IMG/VR virus record: IMGVR_UViG_3300005613_004701
Span: 1-39,059 of that record
Direction: 5' to 3' (one strand)
Length of the DNA: 39,059 bases
Source: a virus
A program made the translations under genes and the position numbers. Below, piece by piece: positions 52-30,120 of this stretch (the first letter of the stretch is position 1; each line of letters begins with the position of its first letter). Under the pieces are notes generated by a model. It did no database searches. It was not told where the DNA came from and saw only the letters and a program-made list of their open reading frames with translations.

Positions 52-3000
52 TTATTCTCCAATAAGATATATGTGTCCTAGATTATTTTCTAATTCTTCT
101 CTTTTATATATAATTACAGAAGGATCATTGTCCTCTATAATTTCACTAGCAGTTTTCGTTATTCCTTTTTCTTCTGCCGCTTTTCTCTGTTTCACAGATT
201 CTTTTATGTTCTTGATAATTATATTTCTAACTGCATCTATGTTTTCCTCTATTGCATTTTCTTTAAATCTCAAAACTCTCCAACCGACATTTGCTAACTT
301 CTGGTCCCTCTTTACATCACGAGATTTAGCATCTGCCCTTTCGTGCCAGGGAGCGCCATCGCAATTGTGGGTACATACATTATTTACCAAATATGTGTGA
401 TTAGAACTGCCTTCGCCTTCAGTTTCAAAATTTATAACATTGCCTTCGTATGGGATTCTCACTATATTCTTAACAGGGATATAGAAGTAATCATCGTCTT
501 CTCTATATATCCTGTTTTTTCTATTTTTAACACAACTGATTTCCCAAAGACCGGCGGTTTTATACTCTCTATCTCCAGCGAACACGCAAACTGTATCTTC
601 TTTTCTAGATAAACAAGTTACAGCAAATTGTCCAGTAGACATTATTAAGGACTGAATGTCGTTAAGCATTCTTTTAGATGAAGAAATAAACCTCATAGTC
701 CCATCCTCTCTAATGCATCCATCTCTAGCACAAAAAGCATCTAAAAATGCATTTTTACCAGACAAGGGAGCACTAAACATCCAAGAAGGCATTTTCTTAT
801 TTTTGGCTTTATGACCAAAATATTCTCTAAAGAATTTCGTTAAAGCTCTGTTGCAACAATTAATTCTTCTTGTATTATTGTTAATTTCTACATATTCTCC
901 ACAATATTCAATCCCAAATACATTATTAATTATTTCTTTAGTTTTATTTGCTAATTCAACTTCATCAATATTGAAAGAAAATGTTACAGATCCACCAGAC
1001 CCTTTTCCTTTCTTATAAACAAATGTAGAGCTTCCTTCTGCTGCGTAAATTCCCATTAACCAACAAAAATTATCTGTTAATTTTACTTTGTCAGGCAATT
1101 TTCTAGCGTTATGTGCTGTACCGTTATATTTTGACAATTTTAAATCAAAATTTTCTATTGAAGAATATTCCGTTTCTCTATTTTTAGGAATTACTAAATA
1201 GTCGCCTTTTTCGATTTTAGATGCTTCTATAAACTTAGGACTATCAGGAACTATATAATCTCTAGTTCTTGTTATTTTAGGTTCTTCTCTCCTAATTCTA
1301 GTTTTTTTAGGCTTACACACTAAAAACGGGTGATTCGGAGTGACTTTCATTCTCAACATACCTAAAGCTTTGATGTCGAGCAACATACCTTTAGATTTAT
1401 TAATAATTTTATGTTTTATTTTAACTAGGTCTCCTTTTATCCCTATTAATTTGTCACTTTTTTTTATATCCTTGGCGAATTTAGTACCATTGCTTGTTGG
1501 AACCAATGTGTCTGGATGCAAACACTCCAACCCCACACCTATATCAGGCATTGCAAAATCTAAAACAAACGGTTGAGGCTCTCCAGCAACTGCGACCTTG
1601 TATTGCGCAAAAGTCCTATAAGGTAGTTTCATATCATTTAACAAGTTGTATATCTTTCCCTCTAACCTTGTCAGTTTTATCTGCGTTGGTTGAGGCTGCT
1701 GCATCTGCTCTTGCACATTTTTGCCCTTACCTCTCTTTTCTACCCTGAAACCAGGCGGTACGGATGCGGCTGCTGGCATCGCTCCTCCCATATCCCCGCC
1801 AGGCATACCTCCCATGCCTCCCATCTCTCCGCCAGGCATACCTCCCATGCCTCCCATCTCTCCGCCAGGCATACCTCCCATGCCTCCCATGTCACCTCCT
1901 AACGGTGGCATTCCTCCAAGTCCTCCGCCCATACCACCTCCCATACCACCTCCCATTCCCATCTGCCCCTGTACTCCTACAACGGCAGTCTCTTCCCTCA
2001 ATCTCTGTATCTCTTGGTCGTAATCAATATCAAATTCTTCTAATAATTTTTGCGTTGAAATAATCTGTTTGTCGTGAAGCTGCACCAACATCTGCTTCAA
2101 ACTAGAAGTGTCCCTCAACTGCAAATCATTCCACTTAATCTTTGGATATAAGTAAACAGTTTCGCCTACCTCTTTACTTCTCTCTTCATCAACAAATCCC
2201 TGCATCATTGCGATAGGCAAGAAGATGTGCATTTCTATCCACTCGGCAAGCATGGCCCTCCAACTCTCAAGCCTGCGAATCATTATTTCTACACCAACCT
2301 GGGCCGAGCTATAACCGCTCATTTCTCCATTTAGAATTGCCTGGTTAAGCATGAAACCATCAAGCAGTTCCTTGCCAATATATTCAAGCTCGTTGTTAAT
2401 ATTGTGAATCTTGCCAGTGTTTCCACAAATTGCTATCCTTCCATTTTTCCTTACAAAAACCCAACTATTAGGAACTTTTACACAATAAACTTGTCCTTCG
2501 TAATTTTCGCGTAAAATATGTTGTTTTCTCAGATTAAATTTAATGTTTCTACGTCTTTCAGACCAATATGTTTGATACTTGAGTCTGTGATGAGGATATT
2601 TTTCGGTATTATCTTCTATACTTGTTGTAGGCCAATATCCGAGTTTCAAACATATCTCAGCCCAATCATCAGATAAACGTTTAGATACTGTGGTATATTT
2701 ATAACGTTGTGTAAGTCTGTCGTTCCTGCAACATCCATCTCCTGCCACCATTGCATCATATAAAATACGCAATTTATCTTTTGGCAAATTTAGTATCCAT
2801 TTAGGAATTTTTTTATCCCAACAATGAGAACCAAATTCTTTTGATAGATATCTAGCTATTTTTGTACTATTAATTGTAAATAATTCACACCCATTGTAAC
2901 GTTTATCACTATATGTCGAATATTTTGGATATGCTAAAGCAACAGATGATTCTATAGCATTAAAAGCAGGATTAGTCTTACTTTGACTAATTTGACAAGC

Positions 3001-4503
3001 TTGAATTAATTTGTCTTCTGGTAAATTTTTCCCTCGATCCTCTTTACTCCCGCCTTCTGTTATGTAATATCCAACAAATTCAAGATATTTTTCAAGAGAG
3101 AGATGCCCTAATGGAGAATTAGAATATGGTAATTCATCAGGAATTTTTCCTATCCAATTTGCCGTAGACAATAATTTGTCATCATGTTTAATTTGTTGTG
3201 AATATACTTCTTGTAATTTACCATTTCTTTCTATGAGCATCCTGTGATTTGGAGTAACGTTAATGTCTACCGAACGTGCTTTAAAATGATACATATCTCC
3301 AAACAAACTTGAATCATAATAATATTCATGATATTCATCTGGTTTTTGATATTCCATCTGTTTTGTATCTACATTATATGTAGCTACATTTTCGTCCTCA
3401 CTCAAATCTTTGAAAAGTTTCCAACCATTTTGTGTCAATATTTCTGTGTCTTTATCATAGCAAGCCCCTTCCCAGCTATATTCAAAAGCGTGGTGAGTGA
3501 CTAGCGTCAGGTTAGGATCGTTTGCAACAGCAGCAAGCTGGTTCGAAACGTCAGAAATGTCTTGAGGACCGGCAGGACGCTTCTCGTCACCTATCTTCAC
3601 AATTCTAACAGGAAGAATAAGCCTCTCGGCAACAATCCAGTTTGCTGTCATCAATTTCGTCTTGTACGCAAGAATTGTAAACGATCTTCTAAGTAACGGA
3701 TTGCCGTATACTCCATAAGGACTAGGATTGTGCTTTACATGACTTACACTTCTAGTTGAAAGAGGAATAGGTGCTCCCCTGGAAACAAGTTCGATAAGTT
3801 TTGGAGGAAGTCTATCATAAATTTGTCTAGGTTGCTTTCTCTGGACAATCATCCTTAGTTCTTCATCAGGGACTAGGGCTATAACAGGCTCTGAAGCTAG
3901 AGGATTTGTTTGCACTTCTATCCAGTCAGGATTCAATACAACGATTCTTCTTATCGAACCGCCAGCGTGATTGCATTGTTCACCGTTTGGAAGTCTTCCT
4001 GAACCTCCGCAGTGCTTGCAATCAATCTCTACCCAAGGGAAAACGTCACCAATAAGAAAATATTCGTGACTGATTAGTTTTGCCCAGTGGTTTATCCTTA
4101 GTCTTTTTGTCTCTTTCTCGTAATAGTTGAGAACTTTGTTATTTTTGCATTCAAGTTTGAAGTTATTAACAGGGAAAGTTGAATAGAAATCTATCGCTGC
4201 TGCGACCTTGCACTCGTTGTCATAGTAGAATCTACACCACTGATAAATTTCTCTCCGACGCGAAGCTATTTGCCAGTTCTGGGGAGTGTGTAGCGGGCTA
4301 AAGAACATAGGTTGTGTCCAAATTACAGACGCACCTGAGCCAGCGAATTGAGCGTTTTTAGTTAATGGAGTATGTGCTACTGAGCTTTCTACGAAGCTGC
4401 TTTCATTTTGATTTGATCCGGTCTTGTAGTATCCTCCTGTTGCTGCAACTAGTGCTTTTTTTGCTTTTGTATTATTTTGGGGTAATGAAAATTTTATAGA
4501 CAT
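52..4503 (-). CDS. phage portal protein fused to a Vsr/DUF559-like nuclease, interrupted by two inteins
   Basis: The ORF is 1483 codons, with a good ribosome site (GGAG, 6 nt before ATG). Removing the inteins (residues 348-695 and 994-1380) leaves about 748 residues. Residues 1-347 plus 696-840 look like a large-phage portal, the dodecameric ring through which DNA is packaged and ejected; the segment around GNPLLRRSFTILAYKTKL is typical. Residues about 845-915 are a Gly/Met-rich linker with tandem repeats. Residues about 940-993 plus 1381-1450 match the Vsr/DUF559 PD-(D/E)XK nuclease pattern: LDFAMPD (D982, D987), then GLE (993) joined after splicing to CDG (1381-1383), then VGWRVLRF. Intein 2 therefore splits the E-x-D motif. 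Position downstream of terL supports the portal call. Seen: inteins, linker, nuclease motif. Inferred: portal function, from context and general similarity. A portal with a nuclease tail is unusual, and its role is unknown. Confidence 0.75.
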   Translation of the reverse strand: MSIKFSLPQNNTKAKKALVAATGGYYKTGSNQNESSFVESSVAHTPLTKNAQFAGSGASVIWTQPMFFSPLHTPQNWQIASRRREIYQWCRFYYDNECKVAAAIDFYSTFPVNNFKLECKNNKVLNYYEKETKRLRINHWAKLISHEYFLIGDVFPWVEIDCKHCGGSGRLPNGEQCNHAGGSIRRIVVLNPDWIEVQTNPLASEPVIALVPDEELRMIVQRKQPRQIYDRLPPKLIELVSRGAPIPLSTRSVSHVKHNPSPYGVYGNPLLRRSFTILAYKTKLMTANWIVAERLILPVRIVKIGDEKRPAGPQDISDVSNQLAAVANDPNLTLVTHHAFEYSWEGACYDKDTEILTQNGWKLFKDLSEDENVATYNVDTKQMEYQKPDEYHEYYYDSSLFGDMYHFKARSVDINVTPNHRMLIERNGKLQEVYSQQIKHDDKLLSTANWIGKIPDELPYSNSPLGHLSLEKYLEFVGYYITEGGSKEDRGKNLPEDKLIQACQISQSKTNPAFNAIESSVALAYPKYSTYSDKRYNGCELFTINSTKIARYLSKEFGSHCWDKKIPKWILNLPKDKLRILYDAMVAGDGCCRNDRLTQRYKYTTVSKRLSDDWAEICLKLGYWPTTSIEDNTEKYPHHRLKYQTYWSERRRNIKFNLRKQHILRENYEGQVYCVKVPNSWVFVRKNGRIAICGNTGKIHNINNELEYIGKELLDGFMLNQAILNGEMSGYSSAQVGVEIMIRRLESWRAMLAEWIEMHIFLPIAMMQGFVDEERSKEVGETVYLYPKIKWNDLQLRDTSSLKQMLVQLHDKQIISTQKLLEEFDIDYDQEIQRLREETAVVGVQGQMGMGGGMGGGMGGGLGGMPPLGGDMGGMGGMPGGEMGGMGGMPGGEMGGMGGMPGGDMGGAMPAAASVPPGFRVEKRGKGKNVQEQMQQPQPTQIKLTRLEGKIYNLLNDMKLPYRTFAQYKVAVAGEPQPFVLDFAMPDIGVGLECLHPDTLVPTSNGTKFAKDIKKSDKLIGIKGDLVKIKHKIINKSKGMLLDIKALGMLRMKVTPNHPFLVCKPKKTRIRREEPKITRTRDYIVPDSPKFIEASKIEKGDYLVIPKNRETEYSSIENFDLKLSKYNGTAHNARKLPDKVKLTDNFCWLMGIYAAEGSSTFVYKKGKGSGGSVTFSFNIDEVELANKTKEIINNVFGIEYCGEYVEINNNTRRINCCNRALTKFFREYFGHKAKNKKMPSWMFSAPLSGKNAFLDAFCARDGCIREDGTMRFISSSKRMLNDIQSLIMSTGQFAVTCLSRKEDTVCVFAGDREYKTAGLWEISCVKNRKNRIYREDDDYFYIPVKNIVRIPYEGNVINFETEGEGSSNHTYLVNNVCTHNCDGAPWHERADAKSRDVKRDQKLANVGWRVLRFKENAIEENIDAVRNIIIKNIKESVKQRKAAEEKGITKTASEIIEDNDPSVIIYKREELENNLGHIYLIGE
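364..1524 (-). mobile_element. portal intein 2 (387 aa) with LAGLIDADG homing endonuclease
   Basis: This is residues 994-1380 of the portal ORF. It begins with Cys (CLHPDTLVPT, block A), has TPNHPFLV (block B), and ends VCTHN before a +1 Cys (canonical block G). LAGLIDADG-type helices are visible as FCWLMGIYAAEGSS and NAFLDAFCARDGC, so the homing endonuclease may be active. The insertion point is between E993 and C1381-D of the fused nuclease domain, one of the most conserved spots of that fold. That matches the tendency of inteins to sit in active sites. The host nuclease can only be active after splicing. Confidence 0.93.
1798..1896 (-). repeat. three 33-bp repeats encoding the Gly/Met linker
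   Basis: Three near-identical 33-bp units (starting at 1798, 1831 and 1864) encode the 11-residue unit MGGMGGMPGG(E/D). Flanking GMGGG runs extend the low-complexity stretch to about residues 845-915 of the portal ORF. It probably acts as a flexible tether between portal and nuclease and is expected to vary in copy number. Confidence 0.9.
2419..3462 (-). mobile_element. portal intein 1 (348 aa) with LAGLIDADG homing endonuclease
   Basis: This is residues 348-695 of the portal ORF. It starts CYDKDTEILTQNGW (block A), has VTPNHRML (block B) and ends AICGN before a +1 Thr. The penultimate residue is Gly rather than the usual His, a known but less common C-terminal splice junction. Endonuclease motifs are LEFVGYYITEGG and ILYDAMVAGDGC. 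It interrupts the portal body between WEGA and TGKI. Confidence 0.92.
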
Positions 4504-14572: not shown

Positions 14573-16483
14573 TTAATTCGGATTAAAAATTGAAGGCGGG
14601 ACATTTGCATTTTGCGTGCGCGTTGGGGATCTTCTCTCCATTGCATCTGAGACTTGCTGCCCTGTTCCAGTACCGTAAGGTGTCCCTTGCATAGATCTCC
14701 ATGTTACAGAATTACTAGTAGGATTTGCTCCTAAGTTAACGACCATACCACTTGGCAATTTGTGAGCCTTGGCATTCATAGCAACATAGCAGGCACCGGC
14801 AAGAGAGTCAACGCAATCATCGCTTCTTACTTCTCCCTCTCTGGGTGCATATACTCTAAACCCTTTAACCGTTACTTTTCTCCTTAGGTGAAGCATTTCG
14901 TCCATTAACAATTGGTGACGCGGAATCCATATTCTATCACTATTTATTAAAATTTCCAACTGAGTATATATAGCCATCTTATATTGCATAGAATAGTGTG
15001 TGCATTTGGCAGGAATCCCTACCTTTTTAAGTTTCTCTATGCTTTGTATGGAATTCCAAACATCATACGTAACCATTCCTAAGTGGAATCTTCTCCTGAG
15101 ATTTATAACATAGTCATCAACTTCTTCTATCCTAACTGGATTTCCTTGTGTAGGTTTCCAACATTTTATTTGATCAACAACTATTCTAAAGTCCGATTTC
15201 CCTTCCATATTTCTGTACGCTTCTCTGTGCAATACAACCATAGCATAATTATGACTTGTCAAAGCAGGATCTAAATGTGCGAAATAAACAACACCAACTT
15301 TTCCTGTTTCTTTCGTTGAAAGTCCAGGTTTAAAACAACTTAGAACTTTTTCCCTTACAAAGAAACTTTCACCTGATGTCCCGGAAAACTCTGCTCCGAA
15401 TTCCATTCTGAAATCTTCTTCGCTCATAGCCCTGTTATGTTCTCTTAAAGAAGATTCCGTTAGATGAGGTTGAACTTTCCAAGTTGGCAACTTGCACATC
15501 AACATATCGTCCACAAGGCTTGATTCTTTGTATAACCTGTAAAACAGTCCTTCCTCACCTCTTGGAGAAGATATACAAATAAGTTTACTGTCAAGAATTC
15601 TATCTGTTTTTTCTTTCCCATATTCATCAAGAACCGGATCACCATTGTCGTCAACTACTTTTATTTCATGACCGAACTGTTCCAATCCTGGTGTAAGTGC
15701 TGTATATATTCTCTCGCCTGAAGAAGATCCTCCAGATTGCTTATAACTTGCTACTTCGTCAAGTATCAAAACAAAAGTTTGTTTACCAAGAAGGGCATCT
15801 GAATTGCTGTGACCTACCTCTACTTCGATAGATCCTTTCGTCTTAGCCATAAACGTTTCATTGTTCTTCTTGTCTTGTGGAGTTAACAAACAAATTTTAC
15901 TTGCCTCTATTCCTTCTGGAACTATCTTGCTTTGGAAATAGGGGCTATGAAGAATCCTGGCCTTTACTTCACGAAACGCTATCTCGGCTTGTTTTGCTGC
16001 TGTGGCAACTGTCAAAATAGTTATTGGCTGAGAGTCACTTATTCCATATATCAAATAAGGATTACCTCCAGGACATTCCAATAACCTCATAGCTTCATAG
16101 GCCATGATTATCCCACAAAGAAAATCCTTGCCTCCTCGCCTACCCCACACTAAGATAAGTTGTTTGAATATCGCACCATTATCGAACTTGGATAACAAAT
16201 CCCCATTTTCATCACAGTTTAATCCTATGTCATTACATAATTGCATTTCTTCATTAGTAAGAGTTACATTTTCGTTGCCAGGAGAGCCTCTATAAAATAT
16301 TTTTAGAATAAGTCGTTGTACAGGTCGAAGATTAATTCCTGTACCAGGAAGATTTAAATATTCCTTTTTTTCACAAAAAGAAATAATATCAGGGATAGTT
16401 CCTTGAGTCCCACCGACTTCGTATAATTCAGTTTTTGCTTTCTGTATTATATCACTAATAGATTTTTTAGATTTTTTTTTCAT
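14573..16483 (-). CDS. terL: terminase large subunit (ATPase and nuclease)
   Basis: This DNA-packaging motor protein has 636 residues, a normal length for a large-phage TerL. Walker A is GRRGGKD at 114-120. Walker B with catalytic Glu is VLILDE at 238-243. A coupling motif, CISSPRG, lies at about 303-309. The RNase H-like nuclease has acidic residues at D405 (FAHLDPALTS), D474 (VTYDVWNS) and the D555/D556/D559 cluster (RSDDCVDSLAG). No intein is present, unlike portal and nrdJ. ATG overlaps the upstream stop as TAATG. The enzyme translocates DNA through the portal and cuts concatemers. Confidence 0.95.
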   Translation of the reverse strand: MKKKSKKSISDIIQKAKTELYEVGGTQGTIPDIISFCEKKEYLNLPGTGINLRPVQRLILKIFYRGSPGNENVTLTNEEMQLCNDIGLNCDENGDLLSKFDNGAIFKQLILVWGRRGGKDFLCGIIMAYEAMRLLECPGGNPYLIYGISDSQPITILTVATAAKQAEIAFREVKARILHSPYFQSKIVPEGIEASKICLLTPQDKKNNETFMAKTKGSIEVEVGHSNSDALLGKQTFVLILDEVASYKQSGGSSSGERIYTALTPGLEQFGHEIKVVDDNGDPVLDEYGKEKTDRILDSKLICISSPRGEEGLFYRLYKESSLVDDMLMCKLPTWKVQPHLTESSLREHNRAMSEEDFRMEFGAEFSGTSGESFFVREKVLSCFKPGLSTKETGKVGVVYFAHLDPALTSHNYAMVVLHREAYRNMEGKSDFRIVVDQIKCWKPTQGNPVRIEEVDDYVINLRRRFHLGMVTYDVWNSIQSIEKLKKVGIPAKCTHYSMQYKMAIYTQLEILINSDRIWIPRHQLLMDEMLHLRRKVTVKGFRVYAPREGEVRSDDCVDSLAGACYVAMNAKAHKLPSGMVVNLGANPTSNSVTWRSMQGTPYGTGTGQQVSDAMERRSPTRTQNANVPPSIFNPN

Positions 16484-20560: not shown

Positions 20561-23500
20561 TTACTCAACTAATGTTAACGTATCTACATTCTTTATTTTA
20601 ATTCTGTCTCCTTTTTTTATCTCAGAAATTTCTATCCATTTCTCTAATCCTGTTTCATCGTCTAAAACAATAAATTTTTCATTTGCTGTACACGATATCC
20701 TTAACCCATCGAGTAGTTCCATGTTTAAAATGTGTTTTTCCCCATTATTATAATACTCATCCAATTTAACAACTTCCATTTTGTAGTTCGTTACATATAT
20801 ATCTCTATTTTCTTTTTCAAATTTGTTAGTAGGGATATTGTTCAAATCAGTTAATTCATCAAAATACATTAATCCAATATTAGTTTCTATTAAAGAATCC
20901 GAAGTTATACATGACGAAATTGAATGACAGATATTTTTCCCTGCTGCCGCTTGCATCTCAATACGCTTTTTCCAATCGATTTCTTCCGCACATGAACCGT
21001 ACCAGGGAGATTTCGTTAAATCAGTTTCACCTGTTATATCCATCCACATTTTCACCTTTGGATGATAAACTACAAACTCTTCCCAGGCATCACCATTCTG
21101 GTCTACAAAATCAACTCTAGCATTCTTGTCGCTAGGATTAATCTTTTTTCTTCTTTTGTATTCCATTCGGAAAAGAGGCTCAATGCCAGAGGTTGTCTGT
21201 GTCAGCAAGCTGACCGATCCCGCCGGGGCAGACGTAAGAAGTCCAATATTTCTTCTCCCGTATTGCTTCATGTCTTTATAGAGTTCTGGATCTTCTTCTT
21301 TTATACGTAATAGAAACGGGTTTTTCTTTTCTAGGTCATAATCCCAAACCTTAAATGGTCCTAATTCTTTAGCGATTTCAACAGAACTTCTATAACATCC
21401 GAGTTTCATCATCTTATAAATCTTCTCTGCGGTTTCGATCCCTTTTTTAGAACAATATGGGATGCCAAGAGATGCAAGCGTATCACCTAAACCTGTTGTC
21501 CCGGTTCCTGTTCTTCTTCCTATTTCACAAACTTCTCGTATTTTTTCCCAAAGAGAAAGTTCTATTGCCTTTATATGTTCGGGTTCGGGATCTTTATTAA
21601 CCTTTTCAATTATCCTGTCTATACACTCAATCTCAAGATCAATTATATCATCCATAAATCTCTGTGCGATTTGAGCGTCCTTATATAATTGCTCAAAATC
21701 GAATCTCGCCTCTTTGGTAAATGGATCTATCACATATCCAAAAAGATTTATTAATAACAAGCGACACGAATCGAGATTTGACAATGGGATCTCTGAACAA
21801 GGATTTGTGGACAATGTTTTAAAACCATACTCAGCGTAACAATCAGCAGGACTTTCTGATGTTATTTTATCCCAAAAAAGAATTCCAGGCTCAGCGCAAT
21901 TTGATACTACTATTCCGTTTAAGAGGACAAATGTATGATTGTCTTCTACCGTAATATCATAAACAAACTTTTCATCACAAATACACTCTTCATTAGAAAT
22001 AACTTTTTCGAAATTAATATCAGATGACAAAAAACTATTAATTTTATCATCATTTTTTAATAGAGAATTTTTATATATAATTCTATGAGAAATATATTCT
22101 CTGCCTTTTGTACTTTTAAACACCTTGTTAAATAATTTTTCATTTATTTCATAAGGGACACCCATTGCATCTATCTTACCAACTGATTTATTTTTTATAA
22201 TTTTAATTTTTGGTATTTCACAATTAATAAGTAACTCGGAAAACTCTTTTATAAATTGAGAAAAAACTCTTAAACGATATGAATTCTTAGTCTTACACAT
22301 TTTCTCGCATATTATCTTGTTCCCTTTAGAACTATTTTTATGTAATGAACACATAATATTATACTGTCTCAGAAGTGCTCTCAGGTTTTCTAATAAAGGC
22401 AAATTTGATTGAGAAATCTCAACTGATGATATGTTTTCACTTGGAGTCGTAGCATCGCCTGAAAAAAAACCAGTAATAAACGCACCTGTTTTTTCTTTAG
22501 ATAAATTAAAAATAAAATCAGGTATGCATTTTTTTCTATTACAATCTAAAAGCCCTAACCCTATGAAAAGCCGTGATAAGAAAGTAGAATTGAAAAAAAT
22601 GCATGTATATCTTCCCTCTGCTTCAATTTGGTATTTACATTGAATTTTTTTAGAAACATTATCAAAAAACGATTTATAATATTTAATTTCGTCAGAATTA
22701 ATATGAAATCTTAACCCGTTATTATGTAATGTTCCTTCAGCTAACCATAATCCCATTAAAAATGACAAGTCTTTTGTTATTTCAAATTTCATGTCTAAAT
22801 TTAAATTGGGCTGTCTAGCAGGCGAAAATTTAAACTCATCAAACTGGATATTATATATATCATTGATAAGTAGAATATCTTTAACAGGAATACAACCTTG
22901 TATTTTCAGGTTAGTTGCTCTTTTACATTTATTCGAATCATAAAACCCCAATAAATTTATTATTTCTTCTTTAGATAATAGTTTTTCAACACCACTACCT
23001 GTTAAATAATTTCCATTGCCACTAAAAAAAGATAGATATTTTGAAAGGTCAATAATATCCGTAAATTTTTCAGGGTTTCCATTGTGTTTTGCTGAAACTA
23101 TCTTATCACCTTCCCTGATGTTTTTTGCTTCAATTGCTTCGGTCTCTCCGTACTCATTAATACGGTAAACAATATGATCACTAGTCAAATAAATTGATTT
23201 ACCATGATTAACTTTAATACAATGTATTTTCTTAGATAATGGATATTCTTGGCTACTAATAATTTTTTTCCATTGCAAATTATTGGTTTCCAAATTTAAA
23301 GACAAAATCTTTATTGTTTTAGATTGATTTTCACGAACAAAATGGAAAAGATCAAACATATTTATAACTTTTATAGTATCATCAACAAAGATCATAGTCT
23401 TAGTATCTCCTCTTAAACATGCATGCGCTTCTTCTACGATTTGTCTCCAAACATCCCTGGCGTTTACCATTCTGGATATTTTTGGCTTCTTTGAATCTAC

Positions 23501-24208
23501 AGGCCAACGCATCTCATAGTCTTTATTTTTATTAACAGATTCTAAAAATTCATTAGTAAGTCGTATAGAGATATTAGCCCCAGTTATTTCTGTCAAATTT
23601 CTTTTTGCTTTTGCGAATTTCAGAACTTCAGGATGATGAATGTCAATTGTAATTATGAGCGCACCTCTGCGGCCTTGTTGCCCCACTTCTCTAATAGAGT
23701 TAGAATATCTTTTCATAAAAGACACAACACCAGTACTTGTTCTAGCAGCATTTGTAGTAGGTGCTCCATCTGGTCTTAAATTAGAAATATCTATTCCTAC
23801 TCCACCTCTGCGTTTAGATATTTGTACTATTTGCTGATCTATATAAAGAATACTAGAGTATGAATCCAGAGGAGATTCACAAACATAGCAATTACTCAAT
23901 GTAACAAATTGATACGAGTTTCCAACCCCATACATTAAAGAACCTTGTGGAACTATTTTTTTGAAGCCTTCTAGATACGAAAATATCTCCTCGAACGACA
24001 TAGGCTCTTTAAACTTTTTCTTCTCTATTCTGGCTAATTCCTTAGCAATTCTGATGTGCATTTTTTCGGGACTATCTTCGAGAATATTTTGTTTGTTGTC
24101 CCTTAATGCATATTTGTCTAAAAAAACTTTAGCTGCTAATTTGTCACCATTAAAATATTTTGTCGATTCTCTGAGAGATGTGTGGTAATCATATACCTCT
24201 AATTCCAT
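20561..24208 (-). CDS. nrdJ: class II ribonucleotide reductase, N-terminal half-gene with one full intein and split-intein N fragment
   Basis: The ORF has 1215 residues. Exteins are residues 1-263 and 771-1099. Family signatures include KRRGGVGIDISNLRPDGAPT, the radical-site motif STNPCSEIPL (N802, C804, E806), TGTTGLGDTLASLGIPY and PAGSVSLLTQTTSGIEPLF. This is the adenosylcobalamin-dependent (class II) type, oxygen-indifferent. A full intein occupies 264-770. From C1100 to the end is an N-terminal split-intein fragment, so the C-terminal 223 extein residues must be supplied in trans by the 19418-20389 product. A consensus-like promoter lies 78 nt upstream. Phage NrdJ genes are frequent intein targets. 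Confidence 0.93.
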   Translation of the reverse strand: MELEVYDYHTSLRESTKYFNGDKLAAKVFLDKYALRDNKQNILEDSPEKMHIRIAKELARIEKKKFKEPMSFEEIFSYLEGFKKIVPQGSLMYGVGNSYQFVTLSNCYVCESPLDSYSSILYIDQQIVQISKRRGGVGIDISNLRPDGAPTTNAARTSTGVVSFMKRYSNSIREVGQQGRRGALIITIDIHHPEVLKFAKAKRNLTEITGANISIRLTNEFLESVNKNKDYEMRWPVDSKKPKISRMVNARDVWRQIVEEAHACLRGDTKTMIFVDDTIKVINMFDLFHFVRENQSKTIKILSLNLETNNLQWKKIISSQEYPLSKKIHCIKVNHGKSIYLTSDHIVYRINEYGETEAIEAKNIREGDKIVSAKHNGNPEKFTDIIDLSKYLSFFSGNGNYLTGSGVEKLLSKEEIINLLGFYDSNKCKRATNLKIQGCIPVKDILLINDIYNIQFDEFKFSPARQPNLNLDMKFEITKDLSFLMGLWLAEGTLHNNGLRFHINSDEIKYYKSFFDNVSKKIQCKYQIEAEGRYTCIFFNSTFLSRLFIGLGLLDCNRKKCIPDFIFNLSKEKTGAFITGFFSGDATTPSENISSVEISQSNLPLLENLRALLRQYNIMCSLHKNSSKGNKIICEKMCKTKNSYRLRVFSQFIKEFSELLINCEIPKIKIIKNKSVGKIDAMGVPYEINEKLFNKVFKSTKGREYISHRIIYKNSLLKNDDKINSFLSSDINFEKVISNEECICDEKFVYDITVEDNHTFVLLNGIVVSNCAEPGILFWDKITSESPADCYAEYGFKTLSTNPCSEIPLSNLDSCRLLLINLFGYVIDPFTKEARFDFEQLYKDAQIAQRFMDDIIDLEIECIDRIIEKVNKDPEPEHIKAIELSLWEKIREVCEIGRRTGTGTTGLGDTLASLGIPYCSKKGIETAEKIYKMMKLGCYRSSVEIAKELGPFKVWDYDLEKKNPFLLRIKEEDPELYKDMKQYGRRNIGLLTSAPAGSVSLLTQTTSGIEPLFRMEYKRRKKINPSDKNARVDFVDQNGDAWEEFVVYHPKVKMWMDITGETDLTKSPWYGSCAEEIDWKKRIEMQAAAGKNICHSISSCITSDSLIETNIGLMYFDELTDLNNIPTNKFEKENRDIYVTNYKMEVVKLDEYYNNGEKHILNMELLDGLRISCTANEKFIVLDDETGLEKWIEISEIKKGDRIKIKNVDTLTLVE
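20564..20911 (-). other. split intein N fragment (IntN, 116 aa)
   Basis: Residues 1100-1215 begin with Cys after the extein NICHSISS: CITSDSLIETNIGLMYF is block A. Block B is weak (SCTANEKFIVL) and has Glu where His is usual. The fragment ends TLTLVE followed by TAA. Length fits known IntN pieces of about 100 residues. Confidence 0.88.
21899..23419 (-). mobile_element. nrdJ intein (507 aa) with LAGLIDADG homing endonuclease
   Basis: Residues 264-770 interrupt EEAHA/CAEPGILFWD, a conserved NrdJ site. It starts CLRGDTKTMIF. Block B is YLTSDHIVY. It ends LLNGIVVSN with +1 Cys; the penultimate residue is Ser instead of His. Endonuclease motifs are LSFLMGLWLAEGTLH and GAFITGFFSGDAT. It is long for an intein and has Asn/Lys/Ile-rich composition like the phage. 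Confidence 0.92.
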
Positions 24209-25793: not shown

Positions 25794-26561
25794 TTATCTC
25801 TTCAATGAACCTTGTGTATCTCTAGCAAATAATTTTTCTACAAGATATTCTCTCCCAATATTGGGATAGAATTCCTTGACCTTACTAACAATTTTCTCTA
25901 AAGGAAAATAATTTTTGAAGAATTTATTATCTGAACAATTTAATATTTTTCTTCCACATGATAATTTTGATATCCATTTAAGACCCCTGTTACAATTTGG
26001 AATCGTATGCTTTTTATGATGATTGTTTATTCCATAAAAATCAGTGTTACCGTCTCTGTATTTACAATCGTAACCAATCAAAACTATTGGATCGCAGCCT
26101 AATGCATACGCCAGTTGAAAAGCAAGCGGGCCGGTACTACCTTTCCCGAATAGAACCATTGGGTTAGGGGGCAATCTAAATGGACCAGGCATTAGCTTAA
26201 ATTGATAAGCTATCCCTCTTGGGTCTGCCGAGTTCCTGCTGTATTTCACTGCTTTTAATTTTGGCAATACAGATCTTTCAGTCATCCAAAGTTCTATATC
26301 TTGCCACATTAATATTGTTGGATCTAAAGATTTAAAAGCCCTGTTAACGCCTATAGTAAAATAGTTCTTTAATAAAGGTTTAATATCATGATCGTTAACA
26401 GACGGACCATTCCCTATAATAAAAACAGGGATATTTTTCATCGTATATTTCCAGCGTCTCACGGTTAGACGTGATTTTTTAGATATATATACCGCTTTTC
26501 TTTTGAGCATTAAATTTTGTCTTTTTAAATCTATGGTTCTAATTCTACATCCCAATGACAT
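25794..26561 (-). CDS. DUF115/MptE-like Rossmann-fold protein
   Basis: Signature segments are PVFIIGNGPSVNDHDIKPL, TIGVNRAFKSLDPTILMW, GSTGPLAFQLAYALGCDP and IVLIGYDCKY. This pattern is shared by DUF115/6-hydroxymethylpterin pyrophosphokinase MptE-like proteins and by GT42-type glycosyltransferase-like phage proteins, so the reaction cannot be told from sequence. The open frame has a 40-residue basic N-terminal extension. The second good ATG (MKNIPVF, about 26441) starts right at the Rossmann fold and is likely the real start, with GGA 8 nt upstream. Confidence 0.6.
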   Translation of the reverse strand: MSLGCRIRTIDLKRQNLMLKRKAVYISKKSRLTVRRWKYTMKNIPVFIIGNGPSVNDHDIKPLLKNYFTIGVNRAFKSLDPTILMWQDIELWMTERSVLPKLKAVKYSRNSADPRGIAYQFKLMPGPFRLPPNPMVLFGKGSTGPLAFQLAYALGCDPIVLIGYDCKYRDGNTDFYGINNHHKKHTIPNCNRGLKWISKLSCGRKILNCSDNKFFKNYFPLEKIVSKVKEFYPNIGREYLVEKLFARDTQGSLKR

Positions 26562-28962: not shown

Positions 28963-30120
28963 ATGATTCAGTCTATACTCGATAGCGATATGTATAAATT
29001 CAGCATGATGAATGCCGTAATGCAATTGTACCCAAATGCAGTTGTCAGGTACGACTTCTTCAATCGCGGAAAAACAGAATTCCCAAAAGACTTCGACAAA
29101 CTACTCAAATACGAAGTGCAAGACATGAGAAATTGGCCGTTGCTTGAGCAACGCGAAAAAAATTGGCTCAAGAAAAACTGCCCATTTCTTCCTGATACTT
29201 ATATAGACCTTTTAGCAGGCTATCATTTTGATCCGAACGAAGTAAATATCAGCCAGGATAATGGCGAATTAAAAATCTATATCGTTGGACCATGGTACAA
29301 GACAATTCTTTGGGAAGTCCCATTAATGGCATTGATAAGTGAACTTTATTTTAAAGAAATTGGTTGCGTGCCAAATCCAGATTACATCAATGTTGCCGCA
29401 AAAAAAGGTAAAGAACTAGAAGAAATAGGAGCATATTTTGCGGATTTTGGAACTCGTAGACGTTTTTCTTTTGTCGTTCATTCTCATGTCGTCAAAAAGT
29501 TAAAAGAATTCAAAACATTTGTTGGGACCAGCAATGTCTATCTTGCAATGAAAAATGACATTAAACCAATAGGAACTGAAGCACACGAATTCCAACAATT
29601 TCACGCTGCTAAATATGGATACAGAATAGCTAACTCGATCACTCTTGGGAAATGGATTGACGTATATCATGGAGATCTTGGCATCGCATTAACCGACACG
29701 TTCACTACAGATGATTTTTTTAAATCGTTCGATATGATGTACGCCAAGCTATTCGATGGGTTGAGACATGATTCAGGAGATCCTGTTACTTTTACCAAAA
29801 AGGCAATCAAACATTATGAAAGTCTTGGAATCGATCCAATAACCAAAACAATCATTTTCTCTGATGGATTAAATGTGAAAGAAGTAAAAACCATACATGA
29901 GTTCTGCAAAGGTAAGATTAAAGACGCCTACGGAATTGGTACAAACCTATCAAACGATGTTGGAGCTGAACCTCTGAATATCGTCATTAAAATGACTGCT
30001 GCCAAACCAGAAGGCAAAGGCAAGTGGATTCAAACTTGCAAACTGTCAGACATACCAGGTAAACATACTGGAGATCCCAATGCAATAAAACTTTGCAAAG
30101 AAGTTCTTGGGATACAATAA
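28963..30120 (+). CDS. pncB: nicotinate phosphoribosyltransferase
   Basis: It converts nicotinate, PRPP and ATP into nicotinate mononucleotide, the first Preiss-Handler step of NAD synthesis. The 385-residue length fits bacterial PncB. Signatures in order: ILDSDMYKFSMMNAVMQLYP, NGELKIYIVGPWYKTILWEV, DFGTRRRF, FVGTSN, GTEAHEF, then LRHDSGDP with the autophosphorylated His (H269), and YGIGTNLSND. Nicotinamide phosphoribosyltransferase is a related alternative, but similarity to enterobacterial PncB is clear throughout. AAAGGA lies 7 nt before ATG. First gene of the plus-strand NAD operon. Confidence 0.93.
   Translation: MIQSILDSDMYKFSMMNAVMQLYPNAVVRYDFFNRGKTEFPKDFDKLLKYEVQDMRNWPLLEQREKNWLKKNCPFLPDTYIDLLAGYHFDPNEVNISQDNGELKIYIVGPWYKTILWEVPLMALISELYFKEIGCVPNPDYINVAAKKGKELEEIGAYFADFGTRRRFSFVVHSHVVKKLKEFKTFVGTSNVYLAMKNDIKPIGTEAHEFQQFHAAKYGYRIANSITLGKWIDVYHGDLGIALTDTFTTDDFFKSFDMMYAKLFDGLRHDSGDPVTFTKKAIKHYESLGIDPITKTIIFSDGLNVKEVKTIHEFCKGKIKDAYGIGTNLSNDVGAEPLNIVIKMTAAKPEGKGKWIQTCKLSDIPGKHTGDPNAIKLCKEVLGIQ

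Follow-up and report, generated by a model that had tools for sequence, protein, structure and literature searches.

The DNA analysed here (hereafter the window) is a virus record of 39,059 bases, itself a fragment, and near its left end lies a gene that joins a portal protein to a nuclease domain in a single open frame interrupted by two inteins (Table 1). An initial annotation, made from the sequence alone, had proposed that a portal protein and a Vsr/DUF559-like nuclease share one reading frame. This proposal is borne out by searches with the joined exteins, which together comprise 748 residues. The joined exteins match the portal family phrog_16240 (1.3e-40), and the window's portal is 31% identical (7e-68) to the portal of Bacillus phage G, its nearest cultured relative. 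The joined tail matches the Pfam DUF559 family (PF04480; E = 5.9e-11, 42.6 bits, cut-off 20.6) and also REase_MTES_1575 (3.3e-10); in the unspliced frame the C-terminal half of the nuclease alone is detected. We consider this anatomy essentially certain. The boundaries first drawn for the feature, 364-1980, do include the second intein, the N-terminal half of the nuclease (1525-1686) and the tether, but leave out the C-terminal half, which lies outside them at about 175-363. The intein within the portal body (2419-3462) was absent from that annotation.

Table 1. Features of the portal-nuclease gene and the terminase gene in the window (positions in the window; aa, residues of the unspliced frame unless stated)
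Feature	Position	Strand	Content or basis
Complete open frame, 1483 aa	52..4503	-	portal, intein 1, portal, tether, nuclease N half, intein 2, nuclease C half
Portal body, N-terminal extein, aa 1-347	3463..4503	-	joined exteins match phrog_16240
Intein 1, 348 aa (aa 348-695), inside portal body	2419..3462	-	Pfam Intein_splicing, best stretch 357-688
Portal body, C-terminal part up to crown region, spliced residues 348-495	1975..2418	-	portal alignments of the L018 model end at residue 464-483
Flexible Gly/Pro/Met-rich tether	1687..1974	-	sequence
Short basic motif VEKRGK in tether, conserved	1726..1743	-	motif count in relatives' tethers
Nuclease N half: LTRLE helix (Vsr E25 equivalent), beta strands, LDF (catalytic Asp), up to catalytic Glu of GLE	1525..1686	-	
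Intein 2, 387 aa (aa 994-1380), LAGLIDADG motifs, ends THN, next residue C	364..1524	-	
Nuclease C half: CDGAPWH (catalytic His), SRD..RD (catalytic Asp), GWRVLRF	about 175..363	-	DUF559 8.8e-7 in unspliced frame
C-terminal tail, last residues NLGHIYLIGE	55..174	-	close relatives end similarly
Terminase large subunit, ATPase and nuclease residues intact	14573..16483	-	phrog_2 5e-19

The placement of the 387-residue intein directly between the catalytic Glu and the Cys-Asp of the nuclease motif (LE and CDG), as originally described, is confirmed: intein 2 sits between ...VLDFAMPDIGVGLE and CDGAPWHERADAKSRDVKRDQKLANVGWRVLRF. It contains two stretches that match Intein_splicing and a LAGLIDADG_3 match at aa 1250-1291, and its splicing residues are intact (an N-terminal Cys, a TPNH block, and a C-terminal HN followed by Cys), from which we infer that it splices in vivo. 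Since the insert parts the catalytic Asp and Glu from the His and final Asp, nuclease activity should need splicing, a dependence that had also been proposed at the outset and that follows from the anatomy of the gene. Intein 1 starts with Cys and ends with CGN before a Thr, so that its penultimate residue is unusual (no His), and its insertion point is occupied in many relatives.

An intein lies exactly after the catalytic Glu in five distinct genes, namely that of the window and those of relatives L030, L045, L056 and L048. The residue that follows the intein at this site is Cys wherever the sequence is complete (L048 is cut by the end of its contig), and relatives that lack the intein have Ala, Thr, Val, Ser or Cys at that position. 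Conserved motifs of important genes are common insertion sites for inteins, so the occupation of the active site is a hint that the motif matters. This arrangement resembles the inteins of phage core genes, such as crAss-like TerL and ribonucleotide reductase, in which a LAGLIDADG intein occupies a conserved site of an essential phage gene, but here the insertion falls between catalytic residues of an accessory portal domain. The window itself also encodes the large subunit of a ribonucleotide reductase (20561-24208), which is interrupted by an intein that contains a LAGLIDADG domain. Portals of the clade have further insertion points near profile positions 91, 110, 349 and 385. As separate observations, up to four inteins occur at recurring points in a single portal (L026, L028, L029, L040, L046, L058, L128 and L134, among others), and some are short, at about 140-150 residues, too small to accommodate a homing nuclease.

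When viral contigs were scanned with the portal body, 64 related loci were recovered, and a second, profile-based scan yielded 80. The window's nuclease tail, used alone as a query in viral contigs, gave no confirmed match because its peptide patterns were too specific, whereas the portal query found the relatives. Among 71 complete unique sequences, essentially every full-length relative encodes the nuclease within its portal frame, mostly uninterrupted; many relatives (e.g. L005-L023) are intein-free proteins of 742-794 residues. The DUF559 profile is matched by 44/44 of the uninterrupted relatives at E 0.01, and each of 16 large contigs (16/16) contains exactly one DUF559 match, in the portal frame, except that in the frame-broken contig G009 it forms a separate short frame. 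The portals without a nuclease are cut by a contig end or, in the case of L060, broken into several frames. In L060 (contig G009) the portal and the terminase are both split across frames, which suggests sequencing errors, and only here does the nuclease have a frame of its own. Two other irregularities were seen: the contigs of L105 and L106 (G023:222665-222952 and G024:10312-10599) encode, besides the portal nuclease, an additional DUF559-like protein in a 303-residue frame, and in L101 (G022:189096-189488) the nuclease match spans two TGA codons, which perhaps reflects recoded TGA or a match that runs past a stop.

Since the gene sits close to one end of a fragmentary record, an assembly or gene-calling artefact could have been thought to join two genes. 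The initial annotation had named this as an outcome that would overturn it, with portal and nuclease as separate proteins in relatives. Yet portal and nuclease form one frame in essentially all full-length relatives, and this frame recurs in dozens of independent contigs from many metagenomes. We therefore reject an artefact, which is refuted for the clade and retains practically no probability.

The carriers of the portal-nuclease gene are uncultivated large phages. No related portal was found in GTDB genome contigs, and in 50,697 GenBank phage records the nuclease gave nine weak matches, none annotated as a portal. A fusion of a portal to a DUF559 nuclease was not found reported in the literature that we searched, which lay largely outside subscription journals. 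The phage G portal clade (gp14) resembles the window's portal in its 31% identical body and in the low-complexity end of its tail. Members of this sister clade (L143-L152) have tails without a nuclease, low-complexity where read, and the phage G genome contains no match elsewhere to our nuclease profile. Given this sister clade, it is probable that one lineage gained the nuclease on a flexible tail already in place, or that the other lineage lost it.

The conservation of the nuclease domain is strict. In the 44 uninterrupted domains (domain numbering), E11, D47, E58, G61, H65, D74, R77 and D78 are invariant and D60 nearly so. In the set of 71 complete unique sequences, D47 and E58 are each present in 71/71 and the His in 69/71, the two exceptions being consistent with rows of the alignment disturbed by an intein, like the window's own row; the Glu of LTxxE is found in 56/56. 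In a small lineage (L028, L054 and L059), Glu or Cys replaces D60, an Asp two residues past the catalytic Glu that is conserved elsewhere. A profile alignment to E. coli Vsr places E11, D47, H65 and D74 at the catalytic positions of Vsr. We take these to be E25, D51, H69 and D97 in the established Vsr numbering.

Structure prediction agrees with this assignment. We modelled relatives in place of the spliced window protein, using AlphaFold on the uninterrupted domain of L002 with an alignment of 44 rows, and obtained a confident core (79/151 residues with pLDDT >= 90). The fold check suggested in the initial annotation thus gave a high-confidence prediction of a Vsr-type nuclease for an uninterrupted relative. 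The best structural match is the DUF559 protein 3hrl (Z 13.4, rmsd 1.9, 94 aligned residues), followed by I-Bth0305I (Z 12.9, rmsd 2.3, 96 aligned) and Vsr (Z 11.0, rmsd 2.2, 103 aligned). The same structures lead a sequence search of the PDB, in which I-Bth0305I is first by E-value. The window's nuclease thus shares its fold and its E, D, H, D active-site pattern with NGO0050 (3hrl), I-Bth0305I (3r3p) and Vsr (1vsr, 1cw0), but, unlike them, it is joined to a portal by a low-complexity tether and shows no additional DNA-recognition domain; in place of the Phe-x-His of Vsr it has Glu-x-Asp.

Furthermore, close pairs of relatives have dN/dS values of 0.02-0.09 over the folded core, and distances between nuclease domains track those between portals (Mantel r 0.75, with 0/999 permutations as high). 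The intact catalytic pattern suggests that the tail domain is an active EDxHD/DUF559 (Vsr-type) endonuclease. The proximity to the mobile-intron enzyme I-Bth0305I, the best PDB sequence match by E-value, could alternatively point to a domesticated homing endonuclease or DUF559 remnant with a structural or DNA-binding role only. We regard this as very unlikely, as the catalytic positions are invariant in 71 sequences and under strong purifying selection. Nor does the protein resemble homing endonucleases of the I-Bth0305I type in its setting: these are mobile, carried by introns or inteins and equipped with their own DNA-recognition region, whereas the domain described here is a fixed C-terminal part of the portal throughout the clade, preceded only by the tether.

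The tethers of the relatives are 78-139 aa long and rich in Gly (32%), Pro (13%) and Met (11%), with Ala also common. The motif [VIL]xK[KR]G[KSR] occurs in 26/31 tethers, usually 22-27 residues before the nuclease, against a mean of 0.03 in shuffled sequences, although this figure overstates the evidence because the pattern was chosen after viewing and the sequences are related. In a full-length model of L018, which is too poor for the topology of the portal to be read at residue level, the tether region (residues 480-598) is unstructured. The low-confidence portal core of this model aligns along the length of solved portals (SPP1, lambda, SaPI1 and HFTV1) with Z values of 7-10 and large rmsd, and the alignments stop at residue 464-483, so that the tether begins past the crown region. 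The crown is the innermost part of the ring in solved portals and faces the capsid interior (PMC4493910). As the tether leaves after the crown, the nuclease is probably inside the head by homology, and not at the outer DNA entrance, near which it had initially been placed.

The window also encodes a terminase, and its sequence bears on what a second nuclease might do. The terminase retains its ATPase and its three nuclease Asp positions in the window and its relatives, in which D405, D474 and the DD..D group are conserved. We therefore reject the idea that the portal nuclease replaces a lost terminase nuclease; it is an additional domain, and the cut that ends packaging should be independent of it. 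We also considered whether the portal nuclease replaces a Holliday resolvase. In the large contigs RuvC and RusA have no match and endonuclease VII has one, below the cut-off; Pox_A22 is likewise unmatched, in a search that was silent everywhere. The missing resolvase matches are weak evidence because the contigs are incomplete and phage versions diverge. The family of the T4 head-completion nuclease gp4 (phrog_218, positive in T4) has one weak match inside a long frame and is otherwise absent from the large contigs, and it is not among the matches of the spliced window protein. Together, the absence of RuvC and RusA matches, the sub-threshold endonuclease VII match and the single weak gp4 match in the large contigs were counted in favour of a role in packaging.

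The reading that we favour, tentatively, as the most likely one is that the nuclease processes the phage's own DNA during packaging or head completion. The gene would make a genuine portal from which both inteins splice out, removal of intein 1 restoring the portal body and removal of intein 2 joining the catalytic Asp and Glu to the His and Asp; before splicing there would be no active nuclease. In the assembled head, twelve nuclease domains would be suspended at the portal's inner mouth, where they could nick or trim abnormal structures or DNA ends. The domain would thus correspond to accessory nucleases such as gp4 of T4, which acts in head completion, and gp49, which is bound to the portal, but as a covalent part of the portal itself. 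In T4, the resolvase gp49 attaches to the portal and releases branched DNA that has stalled (PMC9958956, PMC10893049), and gp4 is a restriction-fold nuclease needed for head morphogenesis (PMC7824862). The likeness lies in a restriction-fold nuclease acting in head morphogenesis (gp4) and in a nuclease located at the portal, gp20 (gp49). However, both T4 enzymes are separate proteins, gp49 has another fold, and no close relative of gp4 was found in the window's clade.

Besides the intact nuclease residues of the terminase, two considerations weigh against a packaging role. A nuclease inside the head cannot easily be brought to branched DNA held up outside the channel, the presumed site of action of T4 gp49, so the internal location argues against debranching ahead of the motor. 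Moreover, an active nuclease stored next to the genome would have to be specific or kept in check, and no such control is evident here.

Enzyme domains fused to portal or MuF proteins have been described before (PBECR, 2H and InPase; PMC5512222), and the likeness to the present case is an enzymatic domain on a protein of the head vertex. Published fusions to RNase-like and other effector domains were proposed to be injected (PMC5512222), and a tether that starts after the crown, placing the nuclease inside the head, would also suit a virion-carried effector: the portal would load the nuclease into the head, from which it would be freed (e.g. by a prohead protease) and injected to cut the DNA of the host or of a superinfecting phage. 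We consider this the main rival, though an unlikely one. A portal that is not cleaved remains in the virion, and the tether shows no conserved cleavage site. Neither an S77 nor an S78 prohead protease was detected in the large contigs, although the S77 search lacked a positive control (its control was silent) and the S78 model matches neither T4 nor phage G. The earlier fusions also involve other enzyme families, whereas this nuclease occurs in essentially the whole clade and is inherited vertically, unlike swapped effectors. This near-universal presence, the vertical inheritance and the strong purifying selection favour a morphogenetic role, and the dN/dS values of 0.02-0.09 and the co-inheritance with the portal suggest a housekeeping function more than a swapped effector.

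The presumed position at the portal's inner mouth would also allow the tethered nuclease to inspect entering DNA and cut any that lacks the phage's modification, so that less host or satellite DNA is packaged. Structural neighbours of the domain include PvuRts1I and AbaSI, two modification-dependent enzymes, but they score clearly below DUF559, I-Bth0305I and Vsr, and no reading domain is present, which makes such a filter improbable. A bolder extension, in which the nuclease is an obligatory part of the portal ring that acts inside the head on every packaged genome, with the active-site intein serving in some members as a timing or safety switch, seems similarly improbable.

Portal-enzyme fusions are already known; a nuclease as an obligatory part of the portal of a whole clade is a new variation. 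It is of specialist interest that the active site of this portal component is also a recurrent intein target. An active nuclease would mean that up to twelve DNA-cutting domains lie beside the packaged genome and need a new kind of control, and the system would offer a direct test of the job of accessory nucleases at the portal. The portal-effector fusions described earlier were interpreted as weapons for injection, whereas a conserved, vertically inherited nuclease suggests a role in morphogenesis. For such work, the intein would be a natural on-switch and the intein-free relatives are ready constructs. Elsewhere in the window, a gene at 28963-30120 on the plus strand resembles nicotinamide phosphoribosyltransferase, with a possible function in NAD salvage, and one at 25794-26561 on the minus strand weakly matches a phage family annotated as sialyltransferase.
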